NCBI GenBank assembly: GCA_963576785.1
Contig: OY756147.1
Location: 248,001-312,000, forward strand
Source: Chlorophyllum brunneum
Lineage: Eukaryota > Basidiomycota > Agaricomycetes > Agaricales > Agaricaceae
Length of the DNA: 64,000 nt
Reading direction: 5' to 3'
Made by a program: the position numbers and the translations under genes. Of this stretch, positions 21,109 through 55,900 are shown one piece after another. The notes below the pieces were generated by a model, which ran no database searches, was not told where the DNA came from, and was given only the letters and a program-made list of their open reading frames with translations. Within the stretch, counting starts at the first letter, position 1, and each line of letters starts with the position of its first letter.

Positions 21109-21671
21109 TGTTGAAGTTTCGGACATATTCTAGAAATAGACTATGAAGTCATAATAGACTAATCCGTTACTTTCTAGTAACTTCATTCCGTAGTAACTTC
21201 CTATGAGTTGCTCTGCATACGATGAGAGTCATAAGTATTTGATAGATTATTCTACATAGTACCAATGACTAGATACTACGTTCCGCAGTACTCCGCAGGC
21301 ACTACGCCGCAGTTAAAGAGAGTCATAAGGAACAATCCATGCAATGCTAGTATTTTATGTAGTATGACTCGTCTATGTTACAATATGTATATAAACCCCA
21401 TGTAGCAGACCTAAGTTCTGCATCTTGTTTAATCGAACAACTTCTTCATCATTGCCTATCTCTTTGAGTACAACACCTCAATCGATTTAATCGACTTCGA
21501 CCTCTACTTAACTGACGTTAACCGCTTCATCAATAATATCTGTCTATCCGAACTACCTTACTACAGGTATCAGATAGAAGCTTATTATCTTGGTGAGTAG
21601 ACCCTACGTTCTCTCCCACTGCGTTTACTGCTGCCCCCAGCAAACAACTCGTTACGGTCGTTTCCTCAACA
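21109..21671 (+). repeat. Copia 5' LTR
   Basis: It starts TGTTGAAGTTTCGG and ends GTTTCCTCAACA. A TATA box (TATATAAA) is at 21,388-21,395, about 280 bp into the LTR. Confidence 0.95.
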
Positions 21672-21686
21672 GGTTATGGGCCCCGG
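21672..21686 (+). promoter_or_regulatory. Copia primer binding site, initiator tRNA-Met type
   Basis: GGTTATGGGCCCCGG begins right after the LTR. It resembles the complement of the anticodon-stem half of initiator tRNA-Met, the primer type known from Drosophila copia. The match is from memory of that site and not computed. Confidence 0.55.
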
Positions 21687-21830
21687 TAGCCTTACCGATG
21701 GTTAAACCATTATCATCCCCTCCAACCGAGATAGGATAATAGGGCTTTACCTGACAGAGTTATCCTTATATTTGATCATTGCTGATACAAGAATTTTCTT
21801 CTAGAAATAAATACACTCGACGAAGATATT

Positions 21831-24800
21831 ATGTCTACCAATAATATCGTCGCTGGTTTACCTAAGCTCAATGGGCCTAAGAACTACGTGTTCTGGTCTA
21901 GAAGGCTTCAGGATGCCCTAACCCTCATTTCTGTTACTGGTTCTGACCAGTCCGGATGGACTGTGACAGACCAGAATCTCTCTCCTGCGAATCCTACCAC
22001 CTTAACGGAGGAGGATAGAAGGAGAGAACAATTGAGAGAACAGGCATTGGCTGTTATTAATGGCACCTTACCTGATTCCCTGTTACTCCATGGGCATGAC
22101 GCTCCTGGATTCCTCTGGACTGATTTGAAAACCCGCTTTGGGACACCTTCTCCTGCCGCGGTGTATTCAATTCTCCAAAGAATGTTGCGAAAGCGCATTT
22201 CAGGAAATCAAGATCCAGCAATGGATCTAGCTGAATTGAGAACAATGGCTTCTCAATTAGAAACAGCTAAGGTAAAATTGCCAGAAGTTCTTGGCGCGAT
22301 GATCGCTTTGAACGCATTACCACCGGATTGGAATGCTGTGGCACAAACAACATTGGCGAATAATCACGATGTTGTAGATATGACCTGGGAGGTAGTCCAG
22401 CAGGCTATAAATGCGGAGTGGTCAAGACGTGAAGGGTCAAGACCTAACATGTCTAACCCCCAAGCATCCTTTGCCGCAACTGCCAACTACCAATCTTGCC
22501 CTCAGGGCAATATCCCCAGGACTCGCCCTGGACCACCCTGGAACCGCTTCCACCCTGGAGGCGATACCAGGGCCCAGCCTGCGTGAGGTCCACGCCACCC
22601 TGCCAATCCAAGTGGGCAGCCTCCTCAGCCTTCTCCCCCTTCTCCTACCTGGATTAACGTCCAGAAAAAGAAGAAGAAGCCCAAGAAGCGCCAGGGTAAA
22701 CCCCAGGCCCACATGGCGGGCTTCGCTGCTGCCATGGAACCAGTGGTCCGTCGTTTCACTGGTCCGGGGATGACCTCCTTCGACCTGATGAGGCACATGG
22801 ACGCGCCTCGACCCATTCCCACTCCCGCTCCTCTGACCACTCATGTACTTGTGAGTGAGAGACCAAAACCTCTTACTTGGGTTAATCCCAAGAAGGTCCA
22901 GCAGGCACGAGAGAATGCTCGTGCTGAGCTCGAGAAAAAGGTGCGTGCTGAAGCACGAAACTTATGTTTTACCGCCTTACTCGAAAACTCACTGTGGATC
23001 CAACAGGTGACCACCTGGCGTGACCGCGTCACTGGTCCTTCGCCCATGCAAATGGCGAAGAAACGTGCCCTCGATCGTTATGATCGACGGATGCACGAGG
23101 TCTCTCACCCCTGCGCCCCGAAAGGACGATCGGTGACACCACCCGGTGCACCTTTGGTTCCTTCTGGTCACCCCCCAGGTTGTACCTGTGAGGGACACAC
23201 GAGGGTAAGTAAATGGTTCACTAAAAATAGTAACCCCGATATTAACGCGACCTGCGTCCATTTCGCTTTTCTTTTACCTCATGATTCGCCTTACGCCTTA
23301 TTGATTTCTCCCAAATTTGGGAATAAACTCAATTTGGTTATGCATCATGTGGTAAAGATCCCAAGCATGGACTCCGTCGCCCGGGGCGACTCGCTTGAAC
23401 CCGGAGAGGTTCGGCCGTACTACCTTCCTCCTCCAGAGGAAATAGTAGCTCCGGCCGTCAGGACCTACGAAGAGGAATTCCCTCCTCTTCCTCGGGCCTC
23501 CCCTCCAATGGAGCATTTCCAGAGTAAGAGATACTCTCTTACTCAGAAGAACAAGACCGCTGATAGGTGTCCTGCCACACTTTCAGTGTTGGTAGACGAA
23601 GCCTTCAAATGGCTTGAGAGCAAGAAGGAGGTCGATGACCTCATGGCGCCGGCTCAGGATGTCGCCTACGACATCCGCGACCCCAGGAACCCTGCAAACG
23701 TCGCAGGACCCTCTTCTAGGTCTCTTCCGAAGTCTCCGAAGTCTGAGGTGTCACTCGGACTCTCGTCAACTGACTACGGGAGCGACTTCAAGAAGAAGGG
23801 AGGAGCTGGGTACGTGATCAAATCGATCTCAGATACTCTTACTAACCCTGATACACAGTCCTGTCACCAACATGCTGACCGGCTGTCTTCGCAAGAAGAA
23901 GGGCAAGGGCAAAGGGAAGGGACGTCGGGGGCCGGGCATGTAAATACACAATCGGGATCTTTAGGATCCCATAATAATGTATTTTCTTTGTGCGAATCGA
24001 TGAATGAGAAGTGTCTTAATACTTCTCAATTTTCTTGTTTCTCTACGCACATGCCCGATCAGTATTTAAGAGTACCAGATCAATTTAGATCTCGATCGCG
24101 AAGCAATGATCAAAGCATAACGCCACTAGAAGAATATAGTGACGTATGGTTATTAGACTCAGGGGCATCATGTCATTACACCCCTTATGCGGAAGACTTC
24201 ATTAACTTCGAAGAACTCGAAGTTTCGATCCCAATTAAGACTGTAGGAGCACAAAGCCCCTACCTTAATGCAGTTGGTCTTGGTGTAGTTATGCTTAAGC
24301 ATAGAGTCTATAACGGGAAGACTGACAGCGTTCAACCAACGCAGATATTAATATATCCAGTCTTCCTTCTAAAAGAAACCTCTGAACGACTAATGTCAGT
24401 GGGACAGTTATGCCAGGATGGCAAAACTGTTAGAACAGATGCCAACGAATCAGTAGTAGTTGATAGCGAAGGAAATGCTATTCTTCAAGCATATCCTTCA
24501 GCAAGTCGCAATACTACTTTACATTTTGTTAACACAAAAATTGTACACTCGGAACAAGCAGCTATGACTGCGGATCCGATCGTTGGCTACAAAGTTGTAC
24601 ATGCGAGATTGGGACATCCCTCTAATCGTATCCTCAATCACTTTGAGAAAAATACGATTGGGTTTACTCCGGTGCAAATTCCCGAGCAAAAGCCAGTCTG
24701 TGACGGTTGTGCCAAGGGAAAGATGCACCAAAAACCCTTTAGAGAGAACCCTACACACGCAAAGCGTCCATTCGAAAGAATACACTCGGATTTAGTTGAA

Positions 24801-27800
24801 CTTCCGATTCTTTCTTACCATAAATTTAAATGGGTCATGACCATAATGGACGACTTTTCCTCCCATGGATGGATTCGCTTCCTCCATAAGAAATCAGAAG
24901 CAGCAGAAGAAATGAAAAATTTCATTGCCTTAATTCAGACTCAATACGAGACTAAATTAAAATATCTCTGCACTGATAGAGGAGGAGAGTATGCAACTGA
25001 CGAGTTGCAATCTCATTTGCGCTCATTAGGGATTATACATGAGACCAGTGCACCGCACATACACCAACAAAATGGTCGAGTGGAACGCTTGAACCGAACC
25101 CTAATGGATAAAGCAGAAGCCATGCGGCATCATGCTTGTATTCCTGATGGTTGGTGGGAGTTTTCTATAGATCATGCGATCCATATCTATAATAAAACAC
25201 CGGTATCACGGCTCATGTGGAAAACACCATATGAAGTGTTGAATCAGAAGATTCCAGACATCTCCAAAGAGAGAGTCTTTGGCTGCGGTGCTTATGTCTT
25301 CCTCCCAAAAGAGATAAGAGACAATAAACTGACAGTGAAGTCAGAACTCATGATTTTCCTTGGTTGGACATCAGACAGGAAAAATTATCGTTTCATGAGG
25401 CACCTAAATGGAAATGTAATCTATACATCTCCAACAGCTGTATTCAGCGAAGAACACTTCCCTAAATGTGTTGGGAAGAAGCGAGAAGAATGGATGAACC
25501 AACCATCATCTTCTACTTCTCGAAGTACACCTTCGGAAGTTATCGTCTTCCATGCTCCAGATCTATCTACTGGTTTACCTATTGATAAACCACCAAGCCC
25601 TATTCCCCGAACTTCTACTGGAAGTTCTCCGGAAGATAGGACTTATAGATCTGTACATGGACGAATTCCAACTCCTTTCCCTGAACCTAAAAAGAATAAA
25701 GGAAAGGGAAAAGCACCGAATATCGATACTGATGTTCAGGAGGAGTGGAATGGTATTGTGCAAAATATTCTCTTTCCACCAAGAGAAACACAAACATGAG
25801 AAGACGATGACAGTGATGGATTATCTTATGCTGATCTACCTAATCACCCTGAAGGTCCGAACCATCCGCCTTCTCAAAGAGATGATCCAGATGTACAACC
25901 ATTCATACCCTATACCCCTGTCGAAGATGATCGGGATGCTGGTCCTTCTGTACCACGAGGTCACTCGGATCAAATACTGGTTCCTGAAATACCTCAGAGA
26001 CCGCAAAGAACCAGAAAAGTACCTGAACGTCCAGGAAACTTCTATGGTTCTACAAAGCATCCGACCAAAATACTCCAGGACTATGAGATGTTCCAACCTC
26101 CTAAGTCGAAATTAACAAGTTCTACAAGTAGACTTGTTAGACAAATTCGATCAGAGGCTTCCAAACCTGGAATAATCGATAGACGTTCTCAGCATGAAGC
26201 TTCTACATTAGAAGACTTATGCAGAGAAGGAGGAGTAGGGATGATCGATTATCTGTGCGCTCAAAAAGTCGAATCACCATTAGTTCCTATTTCTTTCAAG
26301 GATCTAAATCAACTACCATCAGAAGAGAAATCTAAATGGTGGAAAGTGTGCTTAGAGGAGTTAAATTCACTCAAAGAAAGACATGTTTATGACTTAGCTA
26401 AACTTCCGCCTGGAAGAAAAGCTGTCAAAAATAGATGGGTCTTTACACCCAAATCAGATGGTCAATACCATGCTCGACTAGTAGCAAAAGGATTCTCTCA
26501 GATAGAGGGAATTGATTACAATGAACTATTTTCACCAGTAGTCCGTTATGAGACAGCACGACTCATATTTGCAGTCGCTGCCCTCAACGATTGGGAGATG
26601 CTCAGTTTAGATGTTAAAACTGCTTATCTCTACGGAAAACTGGATGAAGAACTCTATATGGAACTTCCAGAAGGTTTCAATACAGGTCGTGGTAATTTGG
26701 TTTGGAAATTAAACCGAGCCATTTATGGATTAAAGCAATCTGGACGACAATGGTGGAAGGAATTGACTAAGTCAATGACCGACCTAGGATTTGTCTGATC
26801 CAAACTAGATGCTGGAGTCTATTATTACTATGACCCTGAAACCAAAGAGCTTATTATAGCTCTGGTCTATGTAGATGACTCAATGTTCATCGGAATTAGA
26901 GGCTCTAGACTTCTATATGAGAAGCGAGCACTCTTTATGAAGAAATGGGAATGCCGAGACCTTGGTCCAACCAAAGAGTTTCTTGGTATGAAAATTTCGC
27001 AAAATCTTATAAACCGATCAATCACCCTAGACCAAATGGATTATCTAGGAAAAGTTCTTGATCAATTTAATATAATTGGAAAGGAAGAAATACCATTACC
27101 AAATGGATTTATCTTCGAATCCAATACAGGAAAAGCAACACCTGACTTCATAAAGAGGTATCAACAATTAGTAGGATCAGTTATGTATCTGATGATAGGC
27201 AGTCGGCCCGAGATAGCTTTTGCCACTGTCAAACTATCACAACATATGACCAATCCAACTAAAGCGCATTACAATGCAGGCTTACATTTGCTAAAGTATC
27301 TTAATGCTACTCGCAAATATAGAATTACCTATAATGGAAGTTCTATGCAAGGCCTGAATGCCTTTTCCGACTCTGATTGGGCTGGTGATCCAATTAGTCG
27401 TAAATCTGTAACTGGATATTTCTGTTTGTTAGCTAGCGGAGCTATTGCTTGGTTAAGTAGGAAACAGAAAACTGTGGCATTATCTTCCACTGAAGCTGAA
27501 TATATGGCTTTGTCAGATTGCAGTCGACAACTTGTTTGGACTGTTAATTTATTGGAAGAAATTGGTATCCAATCATTAGCCTCTTATCTCTTTGGTGATA
27601 ATGAGGGTTCAATATTTTGGGCCAAAAATCCAGTAACAGAAAAACAATCAAAACACATCAACGTCAAATACCATTACATCCGTGATTTGGTAGAAGACGG
27701 AAAAATTGAAATATTCTCTGTGAAAGGCACTGAAAATCCTGCCGATATTCTCACAAAGAATTTAGACAAAATTAAATTCAATCTATTCCGACCTCACCTT

Positions 27801-27818
27801 GGCTTGATGTTTGAGTGA
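21831..27818 (+). pseudogene. Copia gag-pol polyprotein, one frame with three TGA stops
   Basis: A single frame of about 1,995 codons. Gag is at about 21,831-22,580. A long unrecognised segment follows (about 22,640-24,140). Protease has LLDSGASCHYTP (24,153). The integrase finger has HARLGHPSNRIL and CDGCAKGKMH. The integrase core has Asp in IHSDLVELP, Asp in CTDRGGEY and Glu in GRVERLNRTL. RT has NRWVFTPKSDGQYHARLVAK and YVDDSMF (26,871). RNase H has FSDSDWAGD, SSTEAEYMAL and a final copia tail. Stops are TGA 22,584-22,586, 25,797-25,799 and 26,796-26,798; no frameshift is present. Each could derive from CGA by one C-to-T change. No CCHC knuckle is visible in gag. Confidence 0.93.
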
Positions 27819-27838
27819 TTAAAACTCTATATCAATAC

Positions 27839-27852
27839 AGAGCAAGGAGGAG
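27839..27852 (+). promoter_or_regulatory. Copia polypurine tract
   Basis: AGAGCAAGGAGGAG lies directly before the 3' LTR and would prime plus-strand synthesis. Confidence 0.75.
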
Positions 27853-28415
27853 TGTTGAAGTTTCGGACATATTCTAGAAATAGACTATGAAGTCATAATA
27901 GACTGATCCGTTACTTTCTAGTAACTTCATTCCGTAGTAACTTCCTATGAGTTGCTCTGCATACGATGAGAGTCATAAGTACTTGATAGATTATTCTACA
28001 TAGTACCAATGACTAGATACTACGTTCCGCAGTACTCCGCAGGCACTACGCCGCAGTTAAAGAGAGTCATAAGGAACAATCCATGCAATGCTAGTATTTT
28101 ATGTAGTATGACTCGTCTATGTTACAATATGTATATAAACCCCATGTAGCAGACCTAAGTTCTGCATCTTGTTCAATCGAACAACTTCTTCATCATTGCC
28201 TATCTCTTTGAGTACAACACCTCAATCGATTTAATCGACTTCGACCTCTACTTAACTGACATTAACCGCTTCATCAATAATATCTGTCTATCCGAACTAC
28301 CTTACTACAGGTATCAGATAGAAGCTTATTATCTCGGTGAGTAGACCCTACGTTCTCTCCCACTGTGTTTACTGCTGCCCCCAGCAAACAACTCGTTATG
28401 GTCGTTTCCTCAACA
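27853..28415 (+). repeat. Copia 3' LTR
   Basis: 563 bp, the same length as the 5' LTR, with seven transitions between them. Four are at CpG sites (for example GACGTT against GACATT, and TTACGG against TTATGG). Confidence 0.95.
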
Positions 28416-28420
28416 TGGGC

Positions 28421-30654
28421 AGTTGCATTTTTCAACCAAGCAAAATTCACCCATCCAATAATCATCCTGAACTTCCTTGTAATTCCACACCTGGTCAACT
28501 AGATGCTACCCGTGTTTCATGTATGAGTGAGGGGAAGACACGAAAAAGCTAAACTCACTTGACAAGATGATGACCATGGGGTAGCCGGTGTGTCCGTTGT
28601 TGGGGAACACTTAAATCGATAGTCGACCGGGGTGTTTGCTGGGGTGTTCTGGATATCAAGCATCTTAAGCGGCATCCGCTTCAGTACACTGTGCTCCATG
28701 AAATCAGATCGCCGAGATCTATCCTAAGATGCGGTTTCAAATATGCAAAAAGGATAAGGCCAAAGAAGACTTACGAACAGAAACGGGTGAAACTTGTCAT
28801 TCCCAATGCAGTTAACCCATGAATGAAGAATGAGTTCCAAAATGCCGGTATTTTTTCGTGGAGCCCCCTGATGGTCTGCACGGCTGCAAGCCAATGGCAC
28901 CAGGCTCTCATACCATCATTGACCCCCGGCCCTTGGCGTGGCCATGAGAGCGATATATTGACAGAGGTGTCTGGACCTGCCAGGACAGATCTTCAGGTGA
29001 TGCATTAGGACGTAAGACAGCTGATCATACCATTCAGGACTTCCTCAAGAATTCTGCGCACACACAAAGAAGTGAGCTCCTGAGTCGCACTAACGATATC
29101 CAACAGAAATTTGACCGCTTAAAATCCTTGAGGTAGTCGATGAACGATTTATGGAAACACTCAAGCTTCTTGGTATGAGCCTGGCGTGGTTCTGGGACGC
29201 GAAGGACCGAGCGGAGGTGATGAGTGGCGCCATAGGCAGTATCCATCTTCATTGCTAACCAGTTGCACAGCCCCGTCATGCATTCAAAGTTACCCACCCA
29301 TGAGTCATCCATCGTTAGGAGTAGTAACTTTCCGGTGTTGACCATAACATCAGCGGGAACTCTGGAAAGAATACGATTGTATAGCGCATCGAGGAGTGCC
29401 ATTGGATGCGACTTCCCCTCCACAAGCCAAGTCGAATTGGTCTCAATGACGTCGAGCACCTGCTCAAGCTGCAATACTGGGTCACCATAGGCCGGATCAT
29501 CTATAAATTTGGCCACCGTGGAAGCGTAGGCGAATAGTCCCTTTAAACCATAGGCAAGCTGTAGAAAATCACGTTCTGTGGGCCACTGGTGGAGGTCTTG
29601 GAGTGCAGGTGATCGTCCTTTGATAGAGAAGAAGATAGACCTGCCCAAAACGACATTAGGGGCATCGGTGAATAGAGTCTCAGCAACGGTCTGCATGATG
29701 GCGGATTTTCCAACTCCGGCTGGGCCGACGATCCAGAGCATCCTCCTCTTGTCGTCGTGTACAGAGGAGTCAAACGCTGCTCCGGGTATTGTTTCCTTGA
29801 AAAGCCTCGACATAACTACAACGACAATAGGTTGAGCACGTGGAAATGACTGAGAGATTGTGTGGTATCTTACAATCATCGGAGCTGCCATTATCATTCA
29901 GGACAGGATTATTCATGACGATATTCTGCGCGTGCGTGAAGAAACCTTCCCCACTACCGAGGTGCTGAGTCCGTTCATAAAGACCTGACTGATGCGGTTT
30001 CAGATGTTTTCATACAAAGTCGAGACGAATCACTGACATTTGGCGGTTGATAGATAGGACGCCGCGTCGAATACTGCACGGCCAGTGCAGCATGGGGTGA
30101 GGATGGAGTCCCTGTATGAACACTTGGCTCATCAGGAGGACCTTGGGATACAGGGGTATGTCGAGATTGGGCAGGGTGTTGATCGATCAAATGCAGAGGA
30201 GCCCTCTATCGGGGACGGTTCCGGCGATTGGAGCGTTGCATTGGATGAGGTGCATTCATTGGAGACTGTGAATGACAGAGGGCACTCTCCACGGGGTATT
30301 GAGGGACCGAGAAAGAAGGTTGATAGTAATGTGGAAGCGTTGGGTATGGATACGAGTTGTGTGGGAGCTGCGCAGGGAGCCCAAGTGGTCTGCTTGCAGG
30401 GGTGGAAAACTTCTGGTTTACGAAGAAATTCGTAGTGTGCATGGCGGACCGTTGGGCATTGTTCACAGGAGAGTTTGTAGGATAAGCGGATGAACAGTAT
30501 GGATACGCTAAGGGATGAGAGGGAGCTGTAGTTGGAAAATTGGTGGCCACCGGATAGGTGAGGGGTACAATTGTTGGAGGGGCTGTAGCATAGACAGCTG
30601 AGGCGCCATCCATGCATTATACTTGTTGGACGACTCTTGGGTCCTGGGTTCCAT
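28421..30654 (-). pseudogene. N2: NACHT NTPase, main part, broken
   Basis: A paralogue of N1 and N3. It starts at 30,654 with MEPRTQESSNKYNAWM. The Pro-rich N-terminal exon then shifts frame against N3. The NACHT region (29,897-29,034) keeps Walker A GPAGVGKSAIM but has lost about 190 residues between SIKGRS and PALQDLHQWP, including Walker B. A second small deletion lies just before Walker A, after AAFD. C-terminal exons include ISLSWPRQGPG (about 28,930) and SDFMEH (about 28,700). The last exon is cut by copia at 28,415/28,421. It cannot act as an NTPase switch. Confidence 0.85.
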
Positions 30655-30790
30655 GGAGAAAGCTCGGTGGACAGAACAGCTGGGTGGGAGTGGTCAAAAG
30701 AAACAAAGAAGTATGCCTGTGATGGAAACATGCAGCCTGTGCAGGTCTACGCAAGTAGCCGAAAACGACATGAGGCTGTGGCTTGCTCAC

Positions 30791-30974
30791 TGTAAGTCTG
30801 GGACTTACGAAGCCAAACAAGAAACCATAAGACGGATTCGGATGCATATATATAGGGACAGATAGACAGGAAATGTAGTTTCCCCCCCACGACTTCAGAA
30901 TACCATCTCGAGTTCACTGTATCTTCCCGTCCCTTCTCTGTCCCCCAGTGAGGCTGTCAGGAGACAGCCTTTCA
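30791..30974 (+). repeat. LTR3 5' LTR
   Basis: 184 bp from TGTAAGTCTGGG to ACAGCCTTTCA, with a TATATATA box near 30,846. It contains six CpG dinucleotides. Confidence 0.88.
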
Positions 30975-31069
30975 CTTTTTTTTACAGTCCCCGCTCGAGA
31001 CCCTGACGCACATAATCACCGACCGCATATAATCACCCTTACGCCTCAGACCCTTCTGCCTCTGCCCGT

Positions 31070-31275
31070 CCCTGTCTGCCTCTGATTGTTCCTCTCTGCC
31101 TTACCTCGTCTAGTCAAACCACTCCTGAAACCCCACTGTCATAAAACCCTGTGTCTGGCTCTTTTCTGTCTGTCTCTGTTGAATCTCTGTCTCTGCCAAC
31201 ATCTCCGTGTCACACCTCTGTCTCTGCCAACATCTCTGTGTTGTATCTCTGCCTCAGCCACACCTCTGCAAGAAT
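31070..31275 (+). repeat. Degenerate CT-rich tandem repeat in the LTR3 leader
   Basis: Repeated units of the type CTCTGTCTCTGCCAACAT occur several times between about 31,150 and 31,270, within a longer pyrimidine-rich leader. No coding role is seen. Confidence 0.55.
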
Positions 31276-31729
31276 GTACAACTCTCTGTTTCCACTCTCA
31301 CATCTACTTCCCGCTCCAAATCTTCCATCCTGTCACAACACACTTGTTCCAAGACACTTCCGGAAGACCTCACTCCACCCTTAGACAGCGAACGTACTGT
31401 CAGACATCGCATCAGAACAAGGAACCTGGCCTCAACAAGTACTTCCCATTCCCCCCTACTGCATATAACTACTCCAGTAGTGTCCAACTCTGATTCAGAT
31501 AACAAAAACCTTCCAAGCATGTCCACAGACCCTTACACATTCATCCCACTTAGTCCGAATGATGCAAAAATCTCGCAAAATAATTCCTCTTCTCCCCTGG
31601 TTTTTGGTCATGGCAAAATCTCTATTGCTTCCCTCTTGTACTATGTCCATTTGTATCCAAAATAATTCATCATTTCGACCACAACAACATTCTTGCGTGG
31701 ACATCTGCTAATCATGCAACCCTAATTGC

Positions 31730-32560
31730 TGGGATGTTCAAAGATTTTATGATTGAATTCCGTAAAAGGTTCCTCCCTGACAACTGGGAGTTCCCCCTTG
31801 TCTGAGACATACAACAATACCAAAATAACCTTCCGTTCCATTAATAGGTTTCTGCAGTATGCACAGCAAATGCCCATCTTGAGGGTTCCCCAGAGAAGAA
31901 GAATGATAACTGGCTTTGGGAGCACTTCCGTTCGACAATGGACTTGAAATTGCATAACCACTACACAAACTTCTGCCTACATGAAAACCTGGATCATGTC
32001 TTAAACCTTGACAAATGGCTCAAGAAGGTTATGCCAATTGCTCAGAACCTAGAGGAAAAATGTAAGGCATGTAACAATTCATGGGTACAAAGCATGAGTG
32101 TTAACAATATTTTGACTTTTCCACAACTGTCATATCTGCAACCACACCTTCTCTGTTGAACTGCCTTAGCTCTACTGGCACCAACTCTCACCTACCTCCT
32201 TCCCCTCTCTGGTCTTTCTCTTCTAGTACCACTCTATCTAATGCCACTCTATACCACCCCCCCCCCCCTGGCCCTTCCTGTGCAATACCTGGACTCCCTC
32301 CTGAGGACAGCCCACAAATGCAGTAGCTTTGACTCACAACTACCCACCTCTTGTTGCTCTTTATGATACCTTACCACCCCATATTCCCTGTCCTCCCCCA
32401 TTAACTGAGGAAGTCCGACATTTCCTTCTTGATCACAGAGGATGTTTCTACTGCCATGACATTTACATTGACCATGTGTTCTTATCTTGTAATATGACAC
32501 AAAATATCAAGGTTGAGCATTGGACTCAAAGCTGGACAGATGCTAAGCTTGCTTGACTCT
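31730..32560 (+). pseudogene. LTR3 element gag remains
   Basis: Fragments of gag in changing frames. The clearest is a Cys/His motif, CFYC with six residues to His and four more to Cys (CFYCHDIYIDHVFLSC, about 32,448-32,495), at the place of the gag knuckle. The spacing is wider than the usual CX4H. A poly-C run lies at about 32,258-32,270. Confidence 0.55.
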
Positions 32561-32899
32561 GCCAAGCATGGTCACAATATTGCAACCAAATTGCTACTGT
32601 CCACACTCCTAATTTGGTTACCGCATCTATTAAAGAACTTGAAGTTGAATTTGAGGCTGCACAAGAGGTGAACTTCATTGATGGCTCCACTAAACTCCCT
32701 TTGGTCCTGTATGCCAATGATATGAGCCCTCTTGACCCTGAGGATCATGTCTTTGCAGGTACTGTATGGGCTGGTAGCCACCCCAACTCTCCCTTCATGG
32801 GTGTAGTTATGTATGATAATGATTGCTGCCCCAGTTGCATTCTGGAAGATGACAATGATAATGAGTACATGCCATCTCCTACCACCCCTCTCCCTCAAG

Positions 32900-33390
32900 A
32901 TTATATCCTATGGCCCTGCCTTGTGTACAGTCCCACTGCCCTATTTGCTTGTGTCAATGTGCTTATTGACCATGGGTACCCCACAGTTCTGATATTGAGC
33001 AAGCTTTGTGATAGCCTCATGCTTTGTTGACTCCCCTACACAAGTCTCTGGCCCTTGGTAGTGTTGGAGGAGATTCTTTTGCTTGTTCTGAATATGTTAA
33101 ACTGCATATCTGTTCACCTGACAATAATTGGACTGCCCATACCATGTATGCCTTAATTGTACCAGAACTTCATTTTGATATCATCCTTGGTCTTGAATGG
33201 CTACAAGCCAATAAGATTGTGGTAGATATGTCTGAGGGGTCTGTTACTGCAAAGGCCTCAGAATATGCACTTGTCGACTTGTTTGGCCCATCTCTAGGCC
33301 CCTCAACTTTATATGCCCCATCTCCATCTGCTACATTAAAATACTGTATCCTCTCACAAGCTGCTCCCTCAAAGGCAAAAGAATGACATG
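32900..33390 (+). pseudogene. LTR3 element protease remains
   Basis: NVLIDHGYPTVLI (about 32,957) looks like a retropepsin core with DHG in place of DSG or DTG. After a frameshift near 33,025, DIILGLEWLQANKIVVD supplies the second conserved block. It is inactive. Confidence 0.6.
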
Positions 33391-33689
33391 TTACAACCAT
33401 GGAAACTACCCATTATAACTTTGCCCAAGTATTAATACAATTACAACAAACTACACTCCAACTCTGTCCTTTCAAATCACTCCCAATCTCACTCCAAACC
33501 TTGCAGAGGCAAATTGCTGTGCTGGCTGCCACCCTACACCAAAAAAACAAACTTTCTGAGGTAGACCATTGGCTCAAGACTGAATTCAATGACCTATTTC
33601 CTGCTAGCAAATCTTTGGAGTTATTAACAAAGGTTCCTTTGCCATCCCACTCTCACAAACTAACAAGGCTGGCACCACATTAAAAATGG

Positions 33690-34940
33690 AGTTTGAGGAT
33701 CTCTTCCCTACCCAACTCCCATATGTATCACAACTTCCAGATGACATCCACCATAATATAATGGTTACTACAGCAAACAAGATTTGTGTAACAAGAGAGT
33801 ATTCATACTCCCTCAAAGAGTCATTGACTATTACAGACTAAATACATTCACTGTTCCTGACTATTTCCCACTCTCACAAATTGACGACATCCTTGCTGAC
33901 TATGCAAAAGGAAAAATTTGGGCTAAGATCAACATGACAAATGCATTCTTTCAGGCATGTATGAACCCAGACCACATTAAATATACAGCTTGCCAGGCAC
34001 CATTTGGACTCTACAAGTGGACTGTCATGCCAATGGGTCTTCAAAACTTACCTTCAACTCAACAATGTTGTATGATAGTGGCCTTTCAACACTTGATAGG
34101 CAAAATCTGTCATGTATACTTAGATGACATCATTATTTGGTCTTCTACCTTCAAAGAACATGCACACAATGTGTGCTCTGTGAAATAACTACCTTTTCTG
34201 TTCAATGAAAAAGTCACAATTATTTCATGATGAAATCATTTTTCTTGGCCACCACATCTTGCAAAATGGCATACAAGCAGACCCAACTAAGGTTAACAAG
34301 ATCCTCAACTGGCCAGTCCCAAAATCAGCAACAGAAGTGTAACAATTCCTTGGACTTGTCAAATTTGTTGCACACTACCTACCAGATCTTGCTAACCACA
34401 CCCAAGCTCTATACCCCTTAACTACAAAAATGGCTGATAAAGTATTCCCCACTTGGTTGTCCATGCACCAGTCTGCTTTCAATACTATTAAGGCCCTTGT
34501 AACAAGTAGACAATGCCTCACAACTATCAACCATGATAATCCTGAAGAGAACAAGATCTTTGTGACTTGTAACACTAGCATTCCTGGAACTAGTACTGCT
34601 CTAAGCTGGGGACTAACATGGCAATCCTCTAGACTAGTAGCCTTTGACTTCCAATAATACACAAACATACAGAAATACTACCCCACATATGAACAGGAGC
34701 TGCTGGCCATTATTTGTGCTCTCAAAAAGTAGCATTCAGACTTGATTGGAATGCATTTTGAGATTTTTGCAGACCATAAAACACTGTTGAATTTCAATAC
34801 CCAAAAAGACCTCTCTTAATGTCAAGCCTGCTGGATGGAATTTCTGTCCCAATACAATTACCGGATCAATTATACCACAGAAGTACTTAACACTCCAGCT
34901 GATGCACTCTCATGTATTTATGAAAGGTCTCTTCACAAAG
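33690..34940 (+). pseudogene. LTR3 element RT and RNase H remains
   Basis: RT is recognisable from VIDYYRLN, WAKINMTNAFFQ, APFGLYKWTVMPMG and the catalytic YLDDIII (about 34,117). The thumb follows in other frames. RNase H has YEQELLAIICALKK, FADHKTL and TPADALS near 34,900. There are several frameshifts and stops, most of them TGA, TAA or TAG. Confidence 0.8.
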
Positions 34941-35209
34941 ATCCTATGCTTGTAGTGGCCACATTTCTATCACAATCTGCTAATATGGTGCCTATTATTC
35001 AGTCAAACTCAGTCACTCCTACACTCCACTTATAGGTGGACAACAGTCTAATACAGACTATCAAAGAAGGATACATTGCAGACCCATTTGCAAAAAAAAT
35101 TTGTATACTTCTCAATATAAAGAGCATACTGAATCTACTGTTTTCTGAGAATAATGGCCTAATATACCATGGTGAATGACTGTTGGTCCCAAATCACAGT
35201 TCTCTGCAA

Positions 35210-35980
35210 GAATAAAGTTTTCTTCTTACCCATGATTATCTGGGGCATTTCAGGTTTGATAAAACTTATGCCAACATACAAGACTCCTTCTATTGGCTGA
35301 ACATGCATCATGATTTGGAACAGTCATACATTTCTGGATGCAAAGCTTGTCAAAGAAACAAATCATTGATGACTTGCAAATCAGGATCTCTTCACTGCCT
35401 TCCTATACCAGACAGCTGATTTGAATCAGTTGCAATTGACTTCATTGGCCCATTACCTGAAGACAAGAGTTGTGACTATCTTACTACTGTGACCAACAGG
35501 CTGGGTGCAGACGTCAAGTTGATACCCTGCTATTCAATGGTTACTGCAGAAGAATTTGCATTGCTATTCTTTGACTACTGGATTTGTGATAATGGTTGCC
35601 CTGCTGAGATTGTGTCTGATTGTGATTGTTGTTTTGTTTCCAAATTCTGGCATGCTTTGACAAGGGATGTCCTGGCTGCCAAGATTGTACAAGCCCATTA
35701 TGCAAATGAATACCAGAATGATGACCCTCTGTTTGAAATTGAGGACTGTATCCTGCTAAACACTACAAATCAAAGGTGCAATTATGTCAAAAAAGAATCT
35801 GGAAGGGTGGCAAAGTTCATGCCACAATATAATGGACTATTCTTGATTACAAAAGCCCATCCCAAAACCTCATCATACATCTTGTCTCTACCACTATCTT
35901 CAAACATTCACCCCACCTTCCACATCTTCCAACTCAAGCAATATATACCAAATCAAGACAAGATCTTCCTTTCCTGACAA
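35210..35980 (+). pseudogene. LTR3 element integrase remains
   Basis: The finger is GCKACQRNKS (about 35,340). The core shows AIDFIGPLPED and then EIVSDCDCCFVSKFW, with the conserved DRG replaced by DCD. The stretch up to the C-terminal domain is shortened, and the protein ends HPTFHIFQLKQYIPN. No chromodomain is left. Confidence 0.75.
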
Positions 35981-36078
35981 AGACAAAACCCAGATCCTGT
36001 ACTTATATCAGAAAGGAAATAAGAACATATTGTTGAAAATATTGTGACCTACAGACAATTCTATAAAAGTGGGAAGAT

Positions 36079-36272
36079 TGTAAGTCTGGGACTTATGAAG
36101 CCAAACAAGAAACCACAAGATGGATTTGGATGCATATATATAGGGATGGATAGATAGGAAATGTAGTTTCCCCCCCTTCTTTCCCTACAACTTCAGAATA
36201 CCATCTCAAGTTCACTGTATCTTCCCATTCCTTCTCCATCCCCCAGTAAGGCTGTTAGGAGACAGCCTTTCA
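36079..36272 (+). repeat. LTR3 3' LTR
   Basis: 194 bp, with a short insertion against the 5' LTR. All six CpG sites of the 5' LTR read TG or CA here. It is preceded by the purine tract AAAAGTGGGAAGAT. Confidence 0.88.
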
Positions 36273-36555
36273 CTTGTGAACTACTCATTGGTCCCCAATA
36301 GCATGCCACTAGGAAAGTATGGTAGAGGGCAAAGGGGAGCTTTGTTATATGACTGTATTTATGCTTTGAAAACTAGAAAATCATGGCAAAAGGTCCAGAG
36401 GCTAAGGCAAAAAGACCAGGCAGGTACCCTAAAGTCAGAGGACACACTGCCTTCTGGAAGTTGGTAGCCCACAGGTTATACTCATGGAATTCACAGTAAC
36501 CCTTCTGTTAGATTTCATAACCCATAACCTATGACTTCCCTATATTGCATCTTAC
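36273..36555. repeat. Duplicated NLR upstream region
   Basis: This aligns by eye with the region upstream of N3 (about 55,150-55,320), for example CCAGAGGCTAAGGCAAAAAG against CCAGAGGCGAAGGCAAAAAG, followed by GGACACAC against GACGACACAC. It is the continuation of the N2 5' flank beyond the LTR3 element, heavily CpG-depleted. Confidence 0.65.
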
Positions 36556-36790
36556 CTTTAAGATATCCTCAATTGCATATCATATATCACAAACTACACA
36601 AGATTTCATACCCAGTTCAACTGGTCTGTGCACAGTAACATTGGCCAGGAAAGCTCCTCCATTGGAAATTGTAATACCTTCTTGAAGTCTTCAATGAATG
36701 AAGAATGGGCACCATCTCTTGTTGTATTGGATGTTTCTTTGTAGAGCACAGATACTTCAATTACTGTGTTACAAGTGTTCAAGATTGTTA
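36556..36790 (-). pseudogene. Dienoyl-CoA isomerase relic 1
   Basis: Read right to left, this matches exon 4 of the intact gene at 61,656-62,803. It includes the upstream intron acceptor (TAACACAG), SNTTRDGAHSS against SDTTRDGARAS, and further on CVVCDI with YAIEDI against CSCDIRYAAENS, with a TGA in place of CGA. Because intron sequence is included, it came from genomic duplication and not from a retrocopy. Confidence 0.7.
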
Positions 36791-39284
36791 AAGAGCTTTC
36801 CATAAAATTTCCAGGTTCTTCTACCTATACAAAAGCACTAACTCTCAAACAATACCTGAACAAATACACAAATGATGCTAGAGGTTATGACACTTGCTGG
36901 TTTGTCCTCTGTTGGCATATATTCTGTGCCTGTACTTGTGTCTATTTAACCTAGTTGAATATGAGGATAGAGCAATGAAAGTACAAGATCTCTGCTGGAG
37001 CTTTAATCTGCAAAAAGGATGAGGCTACAATAGCTGAACTGACTCCCAAGATACCTACAACTTACTAGTGAGACCCACTATACTTGTTCTTAGGCCTATC
37101 CTCACTAACCAACACTTCTCTCTTGATCAGTGTCATAGCTCAAGTATTTCATGGTTACCTTAACAAATGTATCCTATTTTGCTCATGAATGTCTTAAGCT
37201 TTGAACAGAGAGAGTGGCCTACATGGTAATATAATGGATAGGCTCAGTCAATGTATAGAATGAACTTGTTATGCATAAGACTTTGGACAGCAGCAACATG
37301 TTGGGTTGGGCAAAAAGCACCAATGTTACTATACTCTGATTTGTCGGTGGAACACAGACATTGGAAGGTGTCTTTGATGACTATGTTGGTGATAGGCAGA
37401 GCATTCACAGAAGAGTATCATACACAATGAGATAGTAAATTCTTATCCCTACTTGTTTACATCCACACTCCATATCTTACTCATCATGACCCCTGAAAGG
37501 CATTATTTGCTACTGGGCATAGACACATCATTGGTCTCAAACTGGTTGTGATGCACACAAGAGTGAATTTATACTCCTATTTTCTACTAGCATATTAACC
37601 TGTATAGTGGTCTGATTGCAGATCAGCTTGTTTACTCTCCCTCAAAAAGCTACTCACAACCCTCGTTCATTGAGGAACTCATATAAATGGCCCCCAATTT
37701 CTAGACACATTCTAGAAGGGGCATGAATTTTCACCTTGGAATTAGGAAAAATAAGGCTAGTTACAGTAAACAGTAATTATTTAACCAAGAGGCCATTGAT
37801 TGGGGCATATGCCAACCTGAGATATGACTCAGATTCAATGTAGAGTTGTTTTGTTTGTGATACAAGAGTGTCTCCATATGATACCACTGATGCAGATCTG
37901 ACTTTGATCAGGAATAGTGGGTATATTAGTATATTAGAATTATATGTTAAGTCATTACTGCAGAGCTTTTGCAATGCATGGGCAGTGAGGTTAAGAGGTA
38001 CAGAAAGAACTGGGAGGAGGAAAGGATGTCTGCATTTAGTAGAGACATGTGTGGGATTTGTATGGGGTAGAATAGATCAAGAGCAAGCACTGTACCAGGT
38101 TAATAAGTGGCTGTGTCAACAAATGGACAGAGTCACCATGTGTAAAAACATAATCACAGTACTTCTGCTGCCCTCCTACAACTCCAATGGCTGCAACAAG
38201 TGAGGCAGGGCTTCAGTTGTTTGCATGGACTTCTTTTCTTCAGTCTATTAGCTAGTAGGGCATCTACTGGGTATAGCAACAGTCAACTGCTTTCCTGTCA
38301 GCACTATCCTTCAAACAGGCTAATTGTTTGTTTTGGAGGTCCAGACATTGCACTTGGAATGTCCATGATCAATTTTCTACCATTAACCATTGTTTGTAAG
38401 TACTTTGTTTTGGCATTGTTGTCATTTTTCCCAACAACTATAACCCTAGATGCTATTGCAATCCTCCATTACAACCCCACCTTCAATGACGGATCTACTC
38501 AGCTACCTATGCAGCCACCAGCCCTTCCACAGTCACTCCATTTTATTTGCTCATCTTTGAGAACCCTCTACTAGTCTGACAGACAAGCCTCTGTGGACTA
38601 TTCTTGTGCACCTACAAGCAGACCACTTGAGATTTCTTTGCAACTCCTATACAACTCATATCTATACCTCCCCTCCATGGGATCACCCATGCATCCAGTC
38701 AGTCACCAACCTGCTTTTTTGGTGTGTTCACATACCATGTAGAGTCTACATCTCTAGACCAACAGATTTTTTGTATAAAATATGACATATTATTCTCAAC
38801 CATCCAACAGTCTAGGAGCACTTGATTAATCAACACCAGATTCATGCAATATGTTGGGATCCTCCCTTCTTCACTCTTACATGAAGCTACAAAGTGCAAA
38901 GAGTTTCAGTTGATTGAGTTATTTGTTTGAGCTCAAGGGGACACATTTGTGGGAAATAGGAAGGATGGCCTACTTTATGGGAATGCTAGGGAGGTGGTAG
39001 TGTCAGTGTTTTATTGTATCAGTGTGAGTAATTATGCTAGATTATTACTACTTCGAGCACAAATCTCTGAGCTTCAATGAAAACTGTATTGATTAACACA
39101 AAGTAGCAACATTGATCCAATCTGGAACTCCTCAAACCATGGCTGTATATGTTCCAATTATCCCACTGAAGCTGTAAATCAAGGTGTGGAGAGCGATGTT
39201 TAGCTACCACTGAACTCTTACATTGACTCCAAAGAGTTTTTTTGGATCAAAAATCTTGGAGCTATTATGGATTTGGCTACTAAG
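36791..39284. other. AT-rich region without a recognised gene
   Basis: About 2.5 kb, almost free of CpG. The longest frames (37,868-38,203 and 38,200-38,574, plus strand) have no recognised motif. It is probably decayed repeat. Confidence 0.4.
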
Positions 39285-41676: not shown

Positions 41677-42798
41677 TGTTATGGATTCAGCTACTAAGGG
41701 CAATTGAAGAGGATGTGACCTCTAGGGTATGGCCTTAATACCTATCTCAGCCAAGTAACCAGATAAGCAAATGTTATCAAACTGTCATTACTTAACCAAG
41801 AAATGGGAATCCTGTTTATCTCATAGCTCTGAGTGATAAGGGCAAGTAGAGAATAAGCAATTTAGCAATCTTCTATTGATTGATAGCAACTGTCAATGAA
41901 AACTCTTCTTGGGTGATCAAGAAAGCTATCCCTGTAGAAGATCAAAGCTTAAACTTTGACTTCCTAATACAGTCGGCTATTTATACTAACTACTTCTTTT
42001 CTATAAATACTATGGAGTATAAATAACAAGACTGAAACATGTTTCACAATGTGAAACTGATAGATATGAAACTCAAGGTGAAACACTACTAAAGATAAAC
42101 ATGAAACTGATAAAGATGAAACATAGAGTGAAGTGAAACTGATGAAGGTGAAACAGATAAGTACTTACTCATCCTCAGAGATCTCAGATGATGGAGATTC
42201 ATTGGAACAGCTGCAGTAGCAAGACGTGCAGGATGAAGTGGTAGAAGGCAATGACGATAATGGTGATGATGGAAAAACTGTATCTATAGGATGATCGGAG
42301 TTGGATAATAGGGATGACATAGATATGATTGGTTCTTCGGAGAGATAAGACTCTGGTGACTCGACAAAGGCTCAAGTAAATCACAATAGTGGATGGGGAG
42401 AATTGTCACTGTCACTACTGGGTACAGTGGGTTCATCGTCTGGCGGTAAGTCTTTAGGTTGCATTTCTATACAATAGATTCCATTGGCAATTTGTTGGTG
42501 AATGAGCACTTCGAGTACTAGACCACAAGTATACATGTAGGGGTGGATGTACTGCATAGTTTCTTTGGTAGTCAGTCATGCTTTCTAACCATTGTTCCAG
42601 GTACCATAGAGGTTGTTCTCAATGGTGCATAAGTAGAGTCCATCAGTATCGCATACATATAAGTATGGTGCATATTTCCAGGCTAGTCAAAGTAGAGAAT
42701 CGATAATGGCATCATTGGATCATGGTGGTGGGATGAGTGGTATTGCTTCTGGAAACTTGTCATAATCTCTGACATAGGTTCAAGGTTCAGACATAACA
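41677..42798 (-). repeat. LTR2 copy B
   Basis: 1,122 bp, inverted, from TGTTATGTCTGAACC (at 42,798) to CTGAATCCATAACA (at 41,677). The ORF3 tail inside it stays in frame from the LTR start to the SEISEDE end, with TGA and TAG in several codons. It has ORF3 sequence upstream and gag sequence downstream. Confidence 0.88.
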
Positions 42799-50485: not shown

Positions 50486-50486
50486 A

Positions 50487-51446
50487 CCTCTAGGGTATGG
50501 CCTTAATACCTATCTCAGCCAAGTAACTAGATAAGCAAACATTATCAAACTGTTGTTACTCAACCAAGAAATGGGAATCCCATTTATCTTGTAACTCTTG
50601 AGTAATGAGGGCAAGTAGAGAATAAGCAGTTAAGCAATCTTCTATTGATTGACAGCAACTGTTAAGGAAAACTCTTCTTAGGTAATCAAAAAGGCTATCT
50701 CTGTAAAAGATCAAAGCTTAAGCTTTGACTTCCTAATATAGTTGGCTATTTATACTAACTACTTTTTTTCTAGAAATACTACAAAGTATAGATAAAGAGG
50801 TGAAACAGATGGATGCTTACTTATTCTCAGAGATTTCAGATGATGATGATAGAGCTTTGTCAGAGTACCTGCAGTTACAAGATATACAGGACAAGATAGT
50901 AGATGTTTATAATAATGACAATAGCAGAAATAGAAGAACTGCATCTATCAGATAATCAGAACAGGAAGAGAGTGATGACATTGATGTAGTTAGTCCTTCA
51001 GAGAAGTAAGATTCTGGTGAGTTGACAAAAGCTTAAGTAGATCATAGTAGTAGGTAGGGAGAGTTATTGCTATTACTGCTAGGTATAGCAGGTTTATTGT
51101 CAGGTAATAAGTTTGGTTGTATTTCTATCAAATAGATTCCATCAGTGATTTGCTAGTGGATGAGCACTTTGAGCACAGGGCCACAAGTGTATATATCTGG
51201 ATAGGTGTACTGCAATGTCTTCTCAGTAGTGAATCAAGCTTTCTAGCTATTGTGCTAAGCACTGTACATGTTGTTCTTAATGGTACATAGATAGAGTCTA
51301 TTGGTATCACATATGTGCAAGTATGGTGCATATTTCCAAGTGAGGTGAAGTAGGGAGTTAATGATAATTATGGTAGTAGTACAAGTAGTATTACTTTAGG
51401 AAATCTATTGTATCCCCTGACATAGGTTTTAGGTTTAGACATAACA
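50487..51446 (-). repeat. LTR2 copy C, truncated
   Basis: About 960 bp, inverted. The start TGTTATGTCTAAACC is at 51,446, exactly the LTR2 edge of copies A and B. The last 50 bp of the LTR are missing at the join with LTR1 copy 4. The embedded ORF tail is readable, with stops (LTWKYAPYLHIC, GPVLKVLIH, SEISENK). Confidence 0.8.
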
Positions 51447-51945: not shown

Positions 51946-54900
51946 CTACATACCTGTACACGATGAGAAAATATAAGGAATAAGGTATGTCCATTCAGTC
52001 CCACTATTCTCTAGATCAACAAAGCAATATTCTACATAGCCCTTCTTGTTGAGGTTTAATGGGATGAAAACTGTGATGAGACTATCTGGAAAGTGGGTCT
52101 TGCCACTTTCAAGATGGTGGAAAAACTGTTTCCTACACTTGCATCTACTAGCCAGACAAAAATTGCTTGTCCAATTCTGATCCTCATCCATCCCAAATTT
52201 ACTATAATGGTAATGCTACTCAAGCTCAATGAGTTAGTGAAGAACAGATATAGAAGAATCATACTCACATTGCAAGTGGGGTCCCATGGATCAGGCATTA
52301 TAGCTATGATTGCAGTAGGGCACTTGAATTGATACATAACCAGTGCTGCCTTTGCAAAACTACTGGAAGTAAGGGTTCTAATTGGTATCTGCTTGAGTAC
52401 ATTATGTTCTAGGAACTCAAGTCACCAAGATTTGTCCTGAGGCCCAGTGTTATTCATATAAGGAAAATAAAGACAAAGAGGACTTACAAACAGAAGATTA
52501 CATAAATTTGTGCCTCTATTAGTTGAGTTATCAAATGCAGCTAACGTACAAATGGAGAATGGGTTCTGAAATGCCAATATCTTCATGGTGAGCCCTTCAA
52601 TAGTCTGGTAGGCTGCAAGGTCATAAATCCTGAATTTCATATCTTCATTCTCATTGTACGGCCATGAGAGAAATATATCAGCAACAGTTCCAGGACCATG
52701 TTCCAGGCTGCCTATATATGGAGATCTTCAGATGATACCTTTAGATAGAGGATGACTGATCATACCACTTGGGGCCTGCTCAAGGATTCTGCGTGCGCAC
52801 AAAGAATGAAGCTCCCAGGTTGCACCACGGATATCTGAACAGAACTGTGACCGCTCAAAGTCCTCGAGGTAGTCAGTGAATGATTTATGGAAATATTCGA
52901 GCTTCTTCTCGTGAGCCTCGTGTGGGGTGGGGACATCAAGGACTGAACGGAGGTGATGAGTGGCACTGTAGGCTGTATCCTTCGTTATTCCCAACCAATT
53001 GCACTCCATAATCATGTTTGGGAGGAAGCGGGTACTCTTGATCATTAGCAGTAGTAACTTTCGAGTGTCGATCATAACATCTGCAGGAACTCTGGAAAGA
53101 ATACGGGCGTATAGTGCATCGAGGAGCGCCATCGGATGCGACTTGCCCTTCACAAGCCACTTCGGATTCGCATCAATGACATCCAACACCTGCTCGAGCT
53201 GCAATACTGGGTTACCGTAGGCCGGATCATCGATATATTTGATGACCGTGGAACCATAGGCGAATAGCCCTTTCGAAGTGTCAGCCAGCTTCAGAAAATC
53301 ATGTTCCATGGGCCACTGGCGGAGGTCTTGGAGCGCAGGTGACTTCTTTTGGATCTCCTTGAACTCGCTGCGGAGGAAGCGCTCGACATCTTCACAGGCT
53401 TGTTTGGAATCGACCTTGACCTCTTCTTTCTCATATGCTGGGATGACTTCAGTACGAGAGAATAATGACGTAATGTGAGGCTCCGGGCGACTGGCAATAA
53501 CCCATACAAGAGGCGAGGCGGGATGTGTGATGCAGAAAGTTGAGATGAGGCGGAGGAGCTCGCATTGGTCGTGATATTTGTCACACTCGTCCAAGCCATC
53601 GATCAGGATCAAGAAACGCCTGCAGTCAGGGTTCGCAAGTAAATGAATGAATGGCTCGACGATGAGCTTGCTGAACTGTGCAGCCATCGATTTGCGCAAC
53701 AGCGATGGATTTTTCGTTATCTCGCCCTGGACGAATTGGTGATAAGGTGGATGGTTCACTGCTAGCTGATAGGCAAGCGTCGTGATGGCCTTTGATCCAT
53801 CACTCCGTCCTTTGATGGAGAAGAAGATAGATGCACCAAGAACGACCTGGGTGGTAGAGGCAGATGCGGTGACATTGACGGTAGAGGCAGGTGTGGTCTC
53901 AGCAGTGGTCTGCATAATCGCTGACTTTCCAACTCCGGCTGGTCCAACGATCCAGAGCATCATCCTCTTCCCATTGCAATTGGCGATGAAATCTTGCGCC
54001 CGGTCGACAATCCCCAACCGAGTTCCTGGGTGACATCGTGGAGGAGGGTCGCGATCGGAGTCATCAAATGCCGCTCCTCGTATGGTTTCCTTGACATAAC
54101 TAGAACGAAAGGCAGTGTGCTCAGTGCGCAGGATCGACCGGGAGAATGCATGACATCTCACAATGATCAGAGCCGTTGTTGCCATTCAGAACAGGATTAT
54201 TCATGACGATATTCTGTGCGCCTGTGAAGAAACCCCCTTCCCCACTACTTGGGCGCTGAGGCTGTTGATGAGGGCGCTGCTAGCGACTTTTGAGATCCTT
54301 TCATGTAATATCGGGATGAACTACTCACAATCGGCGAGTGACGAGCAGGGCGCCGGTTCGAATGGGGCACGGCTGATGTAACATGGGGTGGCGAAGGAGT
54401 CCCTCGATGGGGACCCGACCCACCGGGATGATGTTGGGGTATTGGAAGATGTTGAGGTTGGGTAGGACCTTGACCGATCAAGCGCGAGGGAGCCCTCTGC
54501 TGGGTATTGCTTTGGCCGTTAAACCATTGTGGGGAAAAAGAGGAGTATGTGGAGGGTCGGATTGTGTGCGGAGACATATTCACTGGAAGCGGTGGATTTC
54601 GCACGGGACATTGAGGTACAGAGACTGGAGGCTGATAGTGGTGTAGATGTCGGGGCTCTGTTGGAGTGGATGGTAGGTGCGGATACGAGCCAGGTAAGAG
54701 CGGATATGGGCTATGTAGGAATTGCCCATGGAGCCCAGGTTGTCCGATTGGGGTTGGTGGATAGAATGATGGATTGGAAAAGTGTTGATTTGTGAAGGGA
54801 TTCGTGGCGAGTATTCCTTGTGGGTCCACGGGATAACCACATGAACAATAATGATGCAAGGGGAATTGAAAGGGAGCTGTAGTTGGAAAATCGGTGGCCA

Positions 54901-55018
54901 CTGGATATGTGAGGGGTGGAGTTGTTGAACGTCGGTATAGCGCAGACAGTTCAAGGGGCATCCAAGCATTATACTCGTTGGTTGACTCTTGGGTTCCAGA
55001 TGCCTCAGCAGGTTCCAT
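51946..55018 (-). pseudogene. N3: NACHT NTPase with conserved C-terminal module
   Basis: The best-preserved NACHT copy. The N-terminal Pro/His/Ser-rich exon starts at 55,018 (MEPAEASGTQESTNEYNAWM). The NACHT exon is open at 54,185-52,728 (485 codons), with Walker A GPAGVGKSAIM (53,916-53,944) and Walker B LILIDGLDECDKYHD (about 53,580-53,615). C-terminal exons are DIFLSWPYNENED, then FLEHNVLKQIPIR to IMPDPWDPTCN, and the last one KQFFHHLESGKTHFPD to GTEWTYLIPYIF, stop 51,946-51,948. Damage: a 10-bp deletion at the NACHT exon start against N1 and N2 (about 54,090), and TGG TGA at 52,422-52,427 where N2 has CGG CGA. The NACHT part is CpG-rich and the C-terminal part CpG-poor. A shorter product from an internal ATG cannot be excluded. 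Confidence 0.8.
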
Positions 55019-55639: not shown

Positions 55640-55900
55640 GACGGAAGATGGTAGCAATTTTAATTCTGCGTACTCCTTGATCCCCTGACCACGATCGGAC
55701 TCTTCCCTGCGATTATGTTTGTTGATTCTGGAGCGGCTTTGATCACTTCTTCTTCGCGACCACCGGTTGTCCACTCTCTTGTGCAGACAAACGTGTGTGC
55801 TGCGTATGCGAAGTCGTGTATGCTGCCAGCGATTGGAGGAAGGCAAGTGCACCGGTATCTTCCGCAATAAACCGATGAGCCATTTGGAAGAATACGCGTC
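55640..55900 (-). pseudogene. Dienoyl-CoA isomerase relic 2
   Basis: Read right to left: YSSKWL (as in exon 1 of the intact gene, AQYSSKWL), then sequence resembling FLPKITG, then GGREEEVIKAA and IIAGKSPI (exon 5: GGREEVIKAALELAKTIAGK). The middle exons are missing and frames change, so it is a rearranged fragment. Its position upstream of N3 mirrors relic 1 upstream of N2. Confidence 0.7.

Follow-up and report, generated by a model that had tools for sequence, protein, structure and literature searches.

Unequal treatment of the two long terminal repeats (LTRs) of a single transposable element has been described in the mouse, where three full-length endogenous retroviruses (ERVs; ETn/MusD and IAP) near gene starts were reported to combine a proximal LTR free of methylation with a distal one that is methylated, whereas the LTRs of copies far from genes were equal in all but two of the eight reported; that study took this to mean that euchromatin extends into the element (PMC3491417). 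In basidiomycetes, work on the decay of transposable elements and on Masc2/DNMT1-type enzymes describes a loss of CpG to TG or CA that is ascribed to deamination of methylcytosine (PMC4352252, PMC13297926). Here we describe a dead Ty3-type LTR retrotransposon with many stop codons, located at positions 30791 to 36272 of a 64,000-nucleotide stretch (the window) of Chlorophyllum brunneum contig OY756147.1 (positions 248,001 to 312,000), which resembles both of these cases. Like the mouse ERVs, it is full-length, its two LTRs have one origin, and the LTR nearer to a gene start appears to have been spared; it is a single insertion, 137 bp from a start codon, and its empty site is known. It differs in being a mutational residue, in that the 5' LTR was spared and in that the gene is now a relic, whereas the mouse data, as given in that report, are measurements of methylation on three copies with identical LTR sequences, a spared 3' LTR and active genes (PMC3491417). 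The basidiomycete studies, as far as the parts concerned with decay go, rely on statistics over copies (PMC4352252, PMC13297926), while the boundary seen here lies within one copy. We regard this locus as a known kind of process that is recorded here unusually clearly and with an unusually clean internal control, since LTRs that were identical at the start, together with a known empty site, provide equal age and equal starting sequence and leave mainly position to differ. A limited literature search, which is no proof of absence, brought up no printed precedent that we recognised for CpG asymmetry between paired LTRs in fungi.

The stronger of the two signals is the drop in CpG within the element, which outweighs the difference between the LTRs. 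The ratio CG/(CG+TG+CA) is 28/202 to the left of position 31934 and 6/762 to its right (p=8e-15). A first-pass annotation made from the sequence alone had placed this drop near 31.9 kb, and the best single change point falls at 31933, with an interval (31933-31974) that we refer to as the cliff. Adding a second change point, at 31115, where the step is softer, improves the fit by 7.3 log units and yields ratios of 0.225, 0.093 and 0.010, the middle value belonging to a half-decayed zone of the element (31115-31933, forward strand). Read from left to right, the ratio is 0.17-0.27 in four flank bins starting at 28416, 0.22 in the LTR, and then 0.20, 0.115, 0.09, 0.095 and 0; the left end of the element thus runs on from the level of its left flank. 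To the right, a CpG-poor block of 20.9 kb extends from 31936 to 52790, with ratios of 0.007, 0.043 and 0.006 over three segments. An assembly misjoin at the cliff was ruled out, as an open frame of 103 amino acids in the gag region (31848-32156, forward strand) crosses it and both flanks of the element adjoin each other in a paralogue described below. Arginine codons in the interior pieces comprise 2 CGN and 13 AGR to the right of the cliff (1059 codons), and one of each to the left, where 73 codons are too few for a comparison. Related elements were too diverged to gauge how many interior CpGs had been lost: three of them (L007, L009 and L010) are themselves CpG-poor, with an observed/expected ratio of about 0.1, and a fourth (L008, 0.55) aligns over just 247 bp, which hold no CpG.

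The LTR pair shows the same asymmetry. Both LTRs lie on the forward strand and have TG..CA ends; the 5' LTR (30791-30974, its end set with the help of a solo LTR on C6) contains six CpGs, at 30808, 30833, 30839, 30890, 30909 and 30928, and the 3' LTR (36079-36272, with a 10-bp insertion that the 5' LTR lacks) contains none. As the first-pass annotation had stated, TG or CA stands in the 3' LTR opposite all six (6:0), and the solo LTR on C6 has CpG at four of these sites, TG at one and a gap at one. The further claim that the 5' LTR keeps all six needs amending, as it covers just those sites at which one of the copies has CpG today. At 30859/60 the two LTRs read CA and TG, with CA in the relic on C5 and TG in that on C6, for which the best reading is independent loss of a CpG from both LTRs; at 30939/40 they read TG and CA, with TG in both relics, and this is perhaps a second such case of ambiguous ancestral state. 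The 5' LTR would therefore have retained six of seven or eight CpGs and is not pristine, so that the left end of the element seems less exposed to decay rather than untouched, as had been supposed; the unequal decay of CpG to TG or CA within one element stands. Retention of 6/8 against 0/8 gives p=0.007 in a Fisher test and the 6:0 split p=0.031 in a sign test, values that were chosen post hoc and are modest if taken alone. The proposed alignment of the pair with changes counted was carried out: all 15 substitutions are transitions, of which the C6 LTR, taken as outgroup, assigns 10 to the 3' LTR and 2 to the 5' LTR and leaves 3 unpolarised. Both of the 5' changes and 2 of the 10 on the 3' side lie at CA-versus-TG sites, which are explained more simply by loss of a CpG. 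Base-calling artefacts are ruled out by inference, given that, at 30859 and 30939, one LTR has TG where the other has CA and that the element has many stops.

The site of insertion could be reconstructed. To the left of the element lies the CpG-rich, frameshifted relic of a NACHT/NPHP3_N-type gene (28416-30654, reverse strand), whose start codon is placed at 30652-30654 by likeness to a paralogue; the element thus stands head-to-head with the gene, and some 1.28 kb separate its start codon from the cliff upstream, with CpG-rich DNA on the gene side and the CpG-poor block on the other. The paralogue, at 52.5-55.3 kb, has a 5' region (54831-55291, reverse strand) in which the left flank matches up to 30789 (=55147) and the right flank from 36337 (=55171) in the same direction, over 55171-55291, and the joined flanks align across the junction. 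The local score of the right-flank match (64) was reached by none of 200 windows from the CpG-poor block (maximum 26) and by none of 2000 dinucleotide shuffles (maximum 36); among 519 windows of the 260 kb examined, four reach 64, namely two from the flank itself, one from the paralogue and one with a score of 125. This empty site indicates that both flanks were neighbours before a single insertion. It also disfavours recombination between two elements with exchange of flanks and, as no second copy was found of the interior pieces searched, bears out the assignment of both LTRs to one element. The target-site copies, CTCAC on the left (30786-30790) and CTTGT on the right (36273-36277; both forward strand), differ at 3/5 bases, all by transitions; with CTCAT in the empty site, they would fit an ancestral CTCG[T/C] whose CpG was lost in different ways. 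The DNA displaced by the insertion, once upstream of the NACHT-type gene (36273-36500), holds no CpG in 228 bp, as against 12 in 225 bp in the paralogue.

Altogether, we consider it likely that deamination of methylated CpG wore down the right part of the element and the ~20-kb block beyond it, whereas a zone at the 5' end of the gene stayed largely unmethylated. According to this proposal, which is built on sequence comparison, the Ty3-type element would have inserted once, upstream of the NACHT-type start codon, and CpG methylation would then have persisted for long over the element as well as the adjoining DNA on its far side, with their CpGs turning into TG or CA. The retained CpGs suggest that the zone at the 5' end of the gene was largely free of methylation over ~0.46 kb and partly so up to 1.28 kb. 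Since the 5' LTR and the leader would have landed in this spared zone, they would have kept most of their CpGs, unlike the 3' LTR, which was left with none. The gene's original upstream DNA, moved 5.5 kb away, is without CpG where the paralogue has many, so that protection may track distance from the gene and not the sequence itself. We extend this more tentatively to a methylation boundary set by distance from the gene 5' end whatever the sequence, by which foreign DNA within ~1.3 kb would be spared and displaced native DNA would lose its CpGs; such an outcome is possible, but we would not yet favor it. Where the first-pass annotation had spoken of a chromatin or methylation boundary inside the element, the CpG boundary near 31.93 kb is confirmed; its methylation nature would be in keeping with the genes for DNA methyltransferases and with data from related fungi. 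The genome yields seven methylase matches, including two DNMT1-like genes, for which the best solved relatives are DNMT1, one DNMT2-like gene and one DNMT5-like gene, whose relative 7r76, deposited as Rad8, we take to be Cryptococcus DNMT5. Agaricomycotina with two or three DNMT1-RFD genes are reported to have mainly CpG methylation (PMC13297926), and repeats of Marasmius oreades a mean of ~0.75 methylated reads per CpG (PMC9674265). The retained CpGs are probably a fossil trace of where DNA methylation ended, so that an old insertion would document the limit of methylation on an evolutionary time scale. A genome-wide expectation follows: where fungi methylate CpG, the two LTRs of a pair that spans the 5' end of a gene should differ in decay. 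If protection by distance were true, nature would have performed a swap experiment at this locus on a DNA-methylation ruler.

Several observations weigh against this proposal. The trend across 30791-31950 reaches no more than z=-1.9. Outside CpG, three changes are derived in the 3' LTR and none in its 5' counterpart, a difference also to be expected if the 5' end were younger. Of the five CpGs of the paralogue that can be aligned to the displaced right flank, one is TG and none is CA, so that loss by deamination is there no more than a possibility. The gene is frameshifted and may not have been active after the insertion. A CpG-rich neighbour is not always protective, as the LTR relic on C5 is CpG-free 16 bp away from a CpG-bearing flank. 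Moreover, within the CpG-poor block, two repeats (41718-42798 and 50486-51446; the first 310 bp are 89% alike and the rest 70%) include a stretch, 42.1-42.8 against 50.8-51.4 kb, that is similarly lopsided (10 CpG against 0; 91:55) with no known gene beside it; it may not be an LTR pair, and still it counts against a pattern unique to this element.

Among the other explanations, gene conversion or a double exchange could have put a fresher left 1.1 kb into a decayed element, the split then being one of age. The excess of non-CpG changes in the 3' LTR (3 polarised against 0), the sharpness of the cliff at 31933 and the two LTR relics, which imply that other copies were once present, are in its favor. 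We nevertheless hold it to be unlikely: no donor was found among the best-scoring candidates in the genome, where neither 31000-32000 nor the gag piece has a match besides itself and the LTR matches comprise the pair and the two relics; the private deletions of the C6 LTR are absent from the 5' LTR; the zone 31115-31933 is intermediate and not fresh; and CpG is also plentiful in the left flank, outside the element. How age alone can look is illustrated by a young element at C9:382244-388732 (element G; L023), which has LTRs 99.3% alike and is CpG-rich between CpG-free 500-bp flanks, and whose cliffs are best read as reflecting age, not methylation. In the present element both sides of the cliff are equally old, so that age is no explanation unless part of it was converted. 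LTR elements start transcription in the LTR plus leader region, which coincides with the retained zone, and the element's own promoter might have kept itself unmethylated whatever gene adjoined it. The lopsided stretch at 42.1-42.8/50.8-51.4 kb, which also keeps more CpG on its left, would agree with this. Eight other LTR-like pairs of other families, however, with 5'/3' CpG counts of 4/4, 0/0, 3/5, 22/20, 10/12, 0/2, 0/0 and 0/2, show no systematic 5' excess, and we find this explanation rather improbable.

Two further mechanisms seem to us to have little chance. Mutation of the repeat-induced point mutation (RIP) kind, confined to the duplicated part, would be consistent with the C-to-T bias at CpG in basidiomycete elements (PMC4352252). 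We judge it very improbable, as the LTRs, duplicated by definition, differ from each other, and the right flank (36276-38000), for which the genome offers no other match, has almost no CpG, although older duplicates might have been lost; the mutation thus seems not to be limited to duplicated DNA. Selection could have preserved the 5' LTR and leader because they served the NACHT-type gene, whose start lies nearby and head-to-head, as a promoter. This gene, however, is frameshifted, fits its NTPase model in part only and is cut further down by a young copia element, and we give this possibility hardly any weight.

Both comparisons with other elements were restricted to C9:140-400 kb, that is, 260 kb of the 38.9-Mb genome, from whose direct repeats nine LTR-like pairs and one adjoining stretch were hand-picked as controls; gene duplicates and other repeats were excluded, including a balanced pair at 165.1/169.6 kb (92%; 58 and 56 CpG). 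Strong-to-weak against weak-to-strong differences, counted from 5' to 3', are 3:2, 6:6, 3:6, 3:4, 0:2, 9:5, 6:5, 6:10 and 18:12 in the nine pairs and 12:3 in this element. The internal split, expressed as a difference in log-likelihood (dLL), amounts to 1.2, 2.6, 1.2 and 2.0 in four Ty3-like controls, 9.4 in a copia control and 30.8 in this element; these five control elements are without a comparable split. Three others (A, 46.8; E2, 13.0; F, 10.7) are long or nested-looking and are not clean controls; the value of A exceeds that of this element, and a CpG-rich gene lies in the middle of A.

The Ty3 assignment follows from the two direct LTRs of one insertion and from the order of the domains, all on the forward strand: protease (RVP_2, 33015-33383), reverse transcriptase (RVT_1, 33757-34185), RNase H (34343-34654, weak and below the cut-off) and integrase, recognised through its zinc-binding (Integrase_H2C2, 35216-35416) and C-terminal SH3 (SH3_Tf2-1, 35420-35974) parts; except for RNase H these are Pfam matches. 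From reading the translation, the integrase core ahead of the SH3_Tf2-1 piece looks shortened. The gag-region frame, named by position and by eye, gave no Pfam match above the cut-off. This order, the TG..CA ends of the LTRs and the 5-bp target copies (CAAAG) flanking the solo LTR on C6 are as in Ty3-type elements with a Tf2-1-like integrase end, whereas its being dead and having target copies with three mismatches set this element apart. It had been suggested to look for the same split in other copies; no second full copy was found with the interior pieces searched, in searches that scored the best candidates only and may have missed one. Besides the pair, the LTR matches the C6 solo LTR (78%) and the C5 relic, and 33600-35000 has four other matches in the genome (66-73%), of which a single stretch of C11 accounts for two. 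The C5 relic (L004:1350-1566) was rejected as a second full copy, as the LTR piece alone matched within the 10 kb examined; it has no CpG, and past its end at 1550 CpG reappears at 1566 and is dense from there on.

Many places within C9:140-400 kb are related to the NACHT-type relic, whose 3' part is cut by the young copia element mentioned above (21109-28415; LTRs 98.8% alike, target copies TGGGC). At two further loci, which are mirror-oriented (C9:147106-152976 and C9:218448-224110; within L030, L025, L012 and L013), a CpG-rich gene (ratio ~0.33) lies between two CpG-poor relatives of itself; the piece of it that was tested had no Pfam match, and the gene may be FunK1-like. Another NACHT paralogue has a similar CpG cliff 304 bp upstream of its start-codon equivalent, and two near-identical copies of an unnamed gene have cliffs ~280-380 and 356 bp upstream of their start codons; these recurrences speak for the proposed spared zone at the gene's 5' end. 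Within the CpG-poor block, the short stretch 38611-38668 matches, in inverted orientation, the N-terminal region of NACHT-type genes and is perhaps a decayed paralogue. The match with a score of 125 joins the right-flank part 36564-36778 to 62193-62426; close to the latter, 61882-62114 resembles 55677-55877 upstream of the paralogue (score 104), and 61882-62426 may thus be upstream DNA of the same kind as that of the NACHT paralogue.

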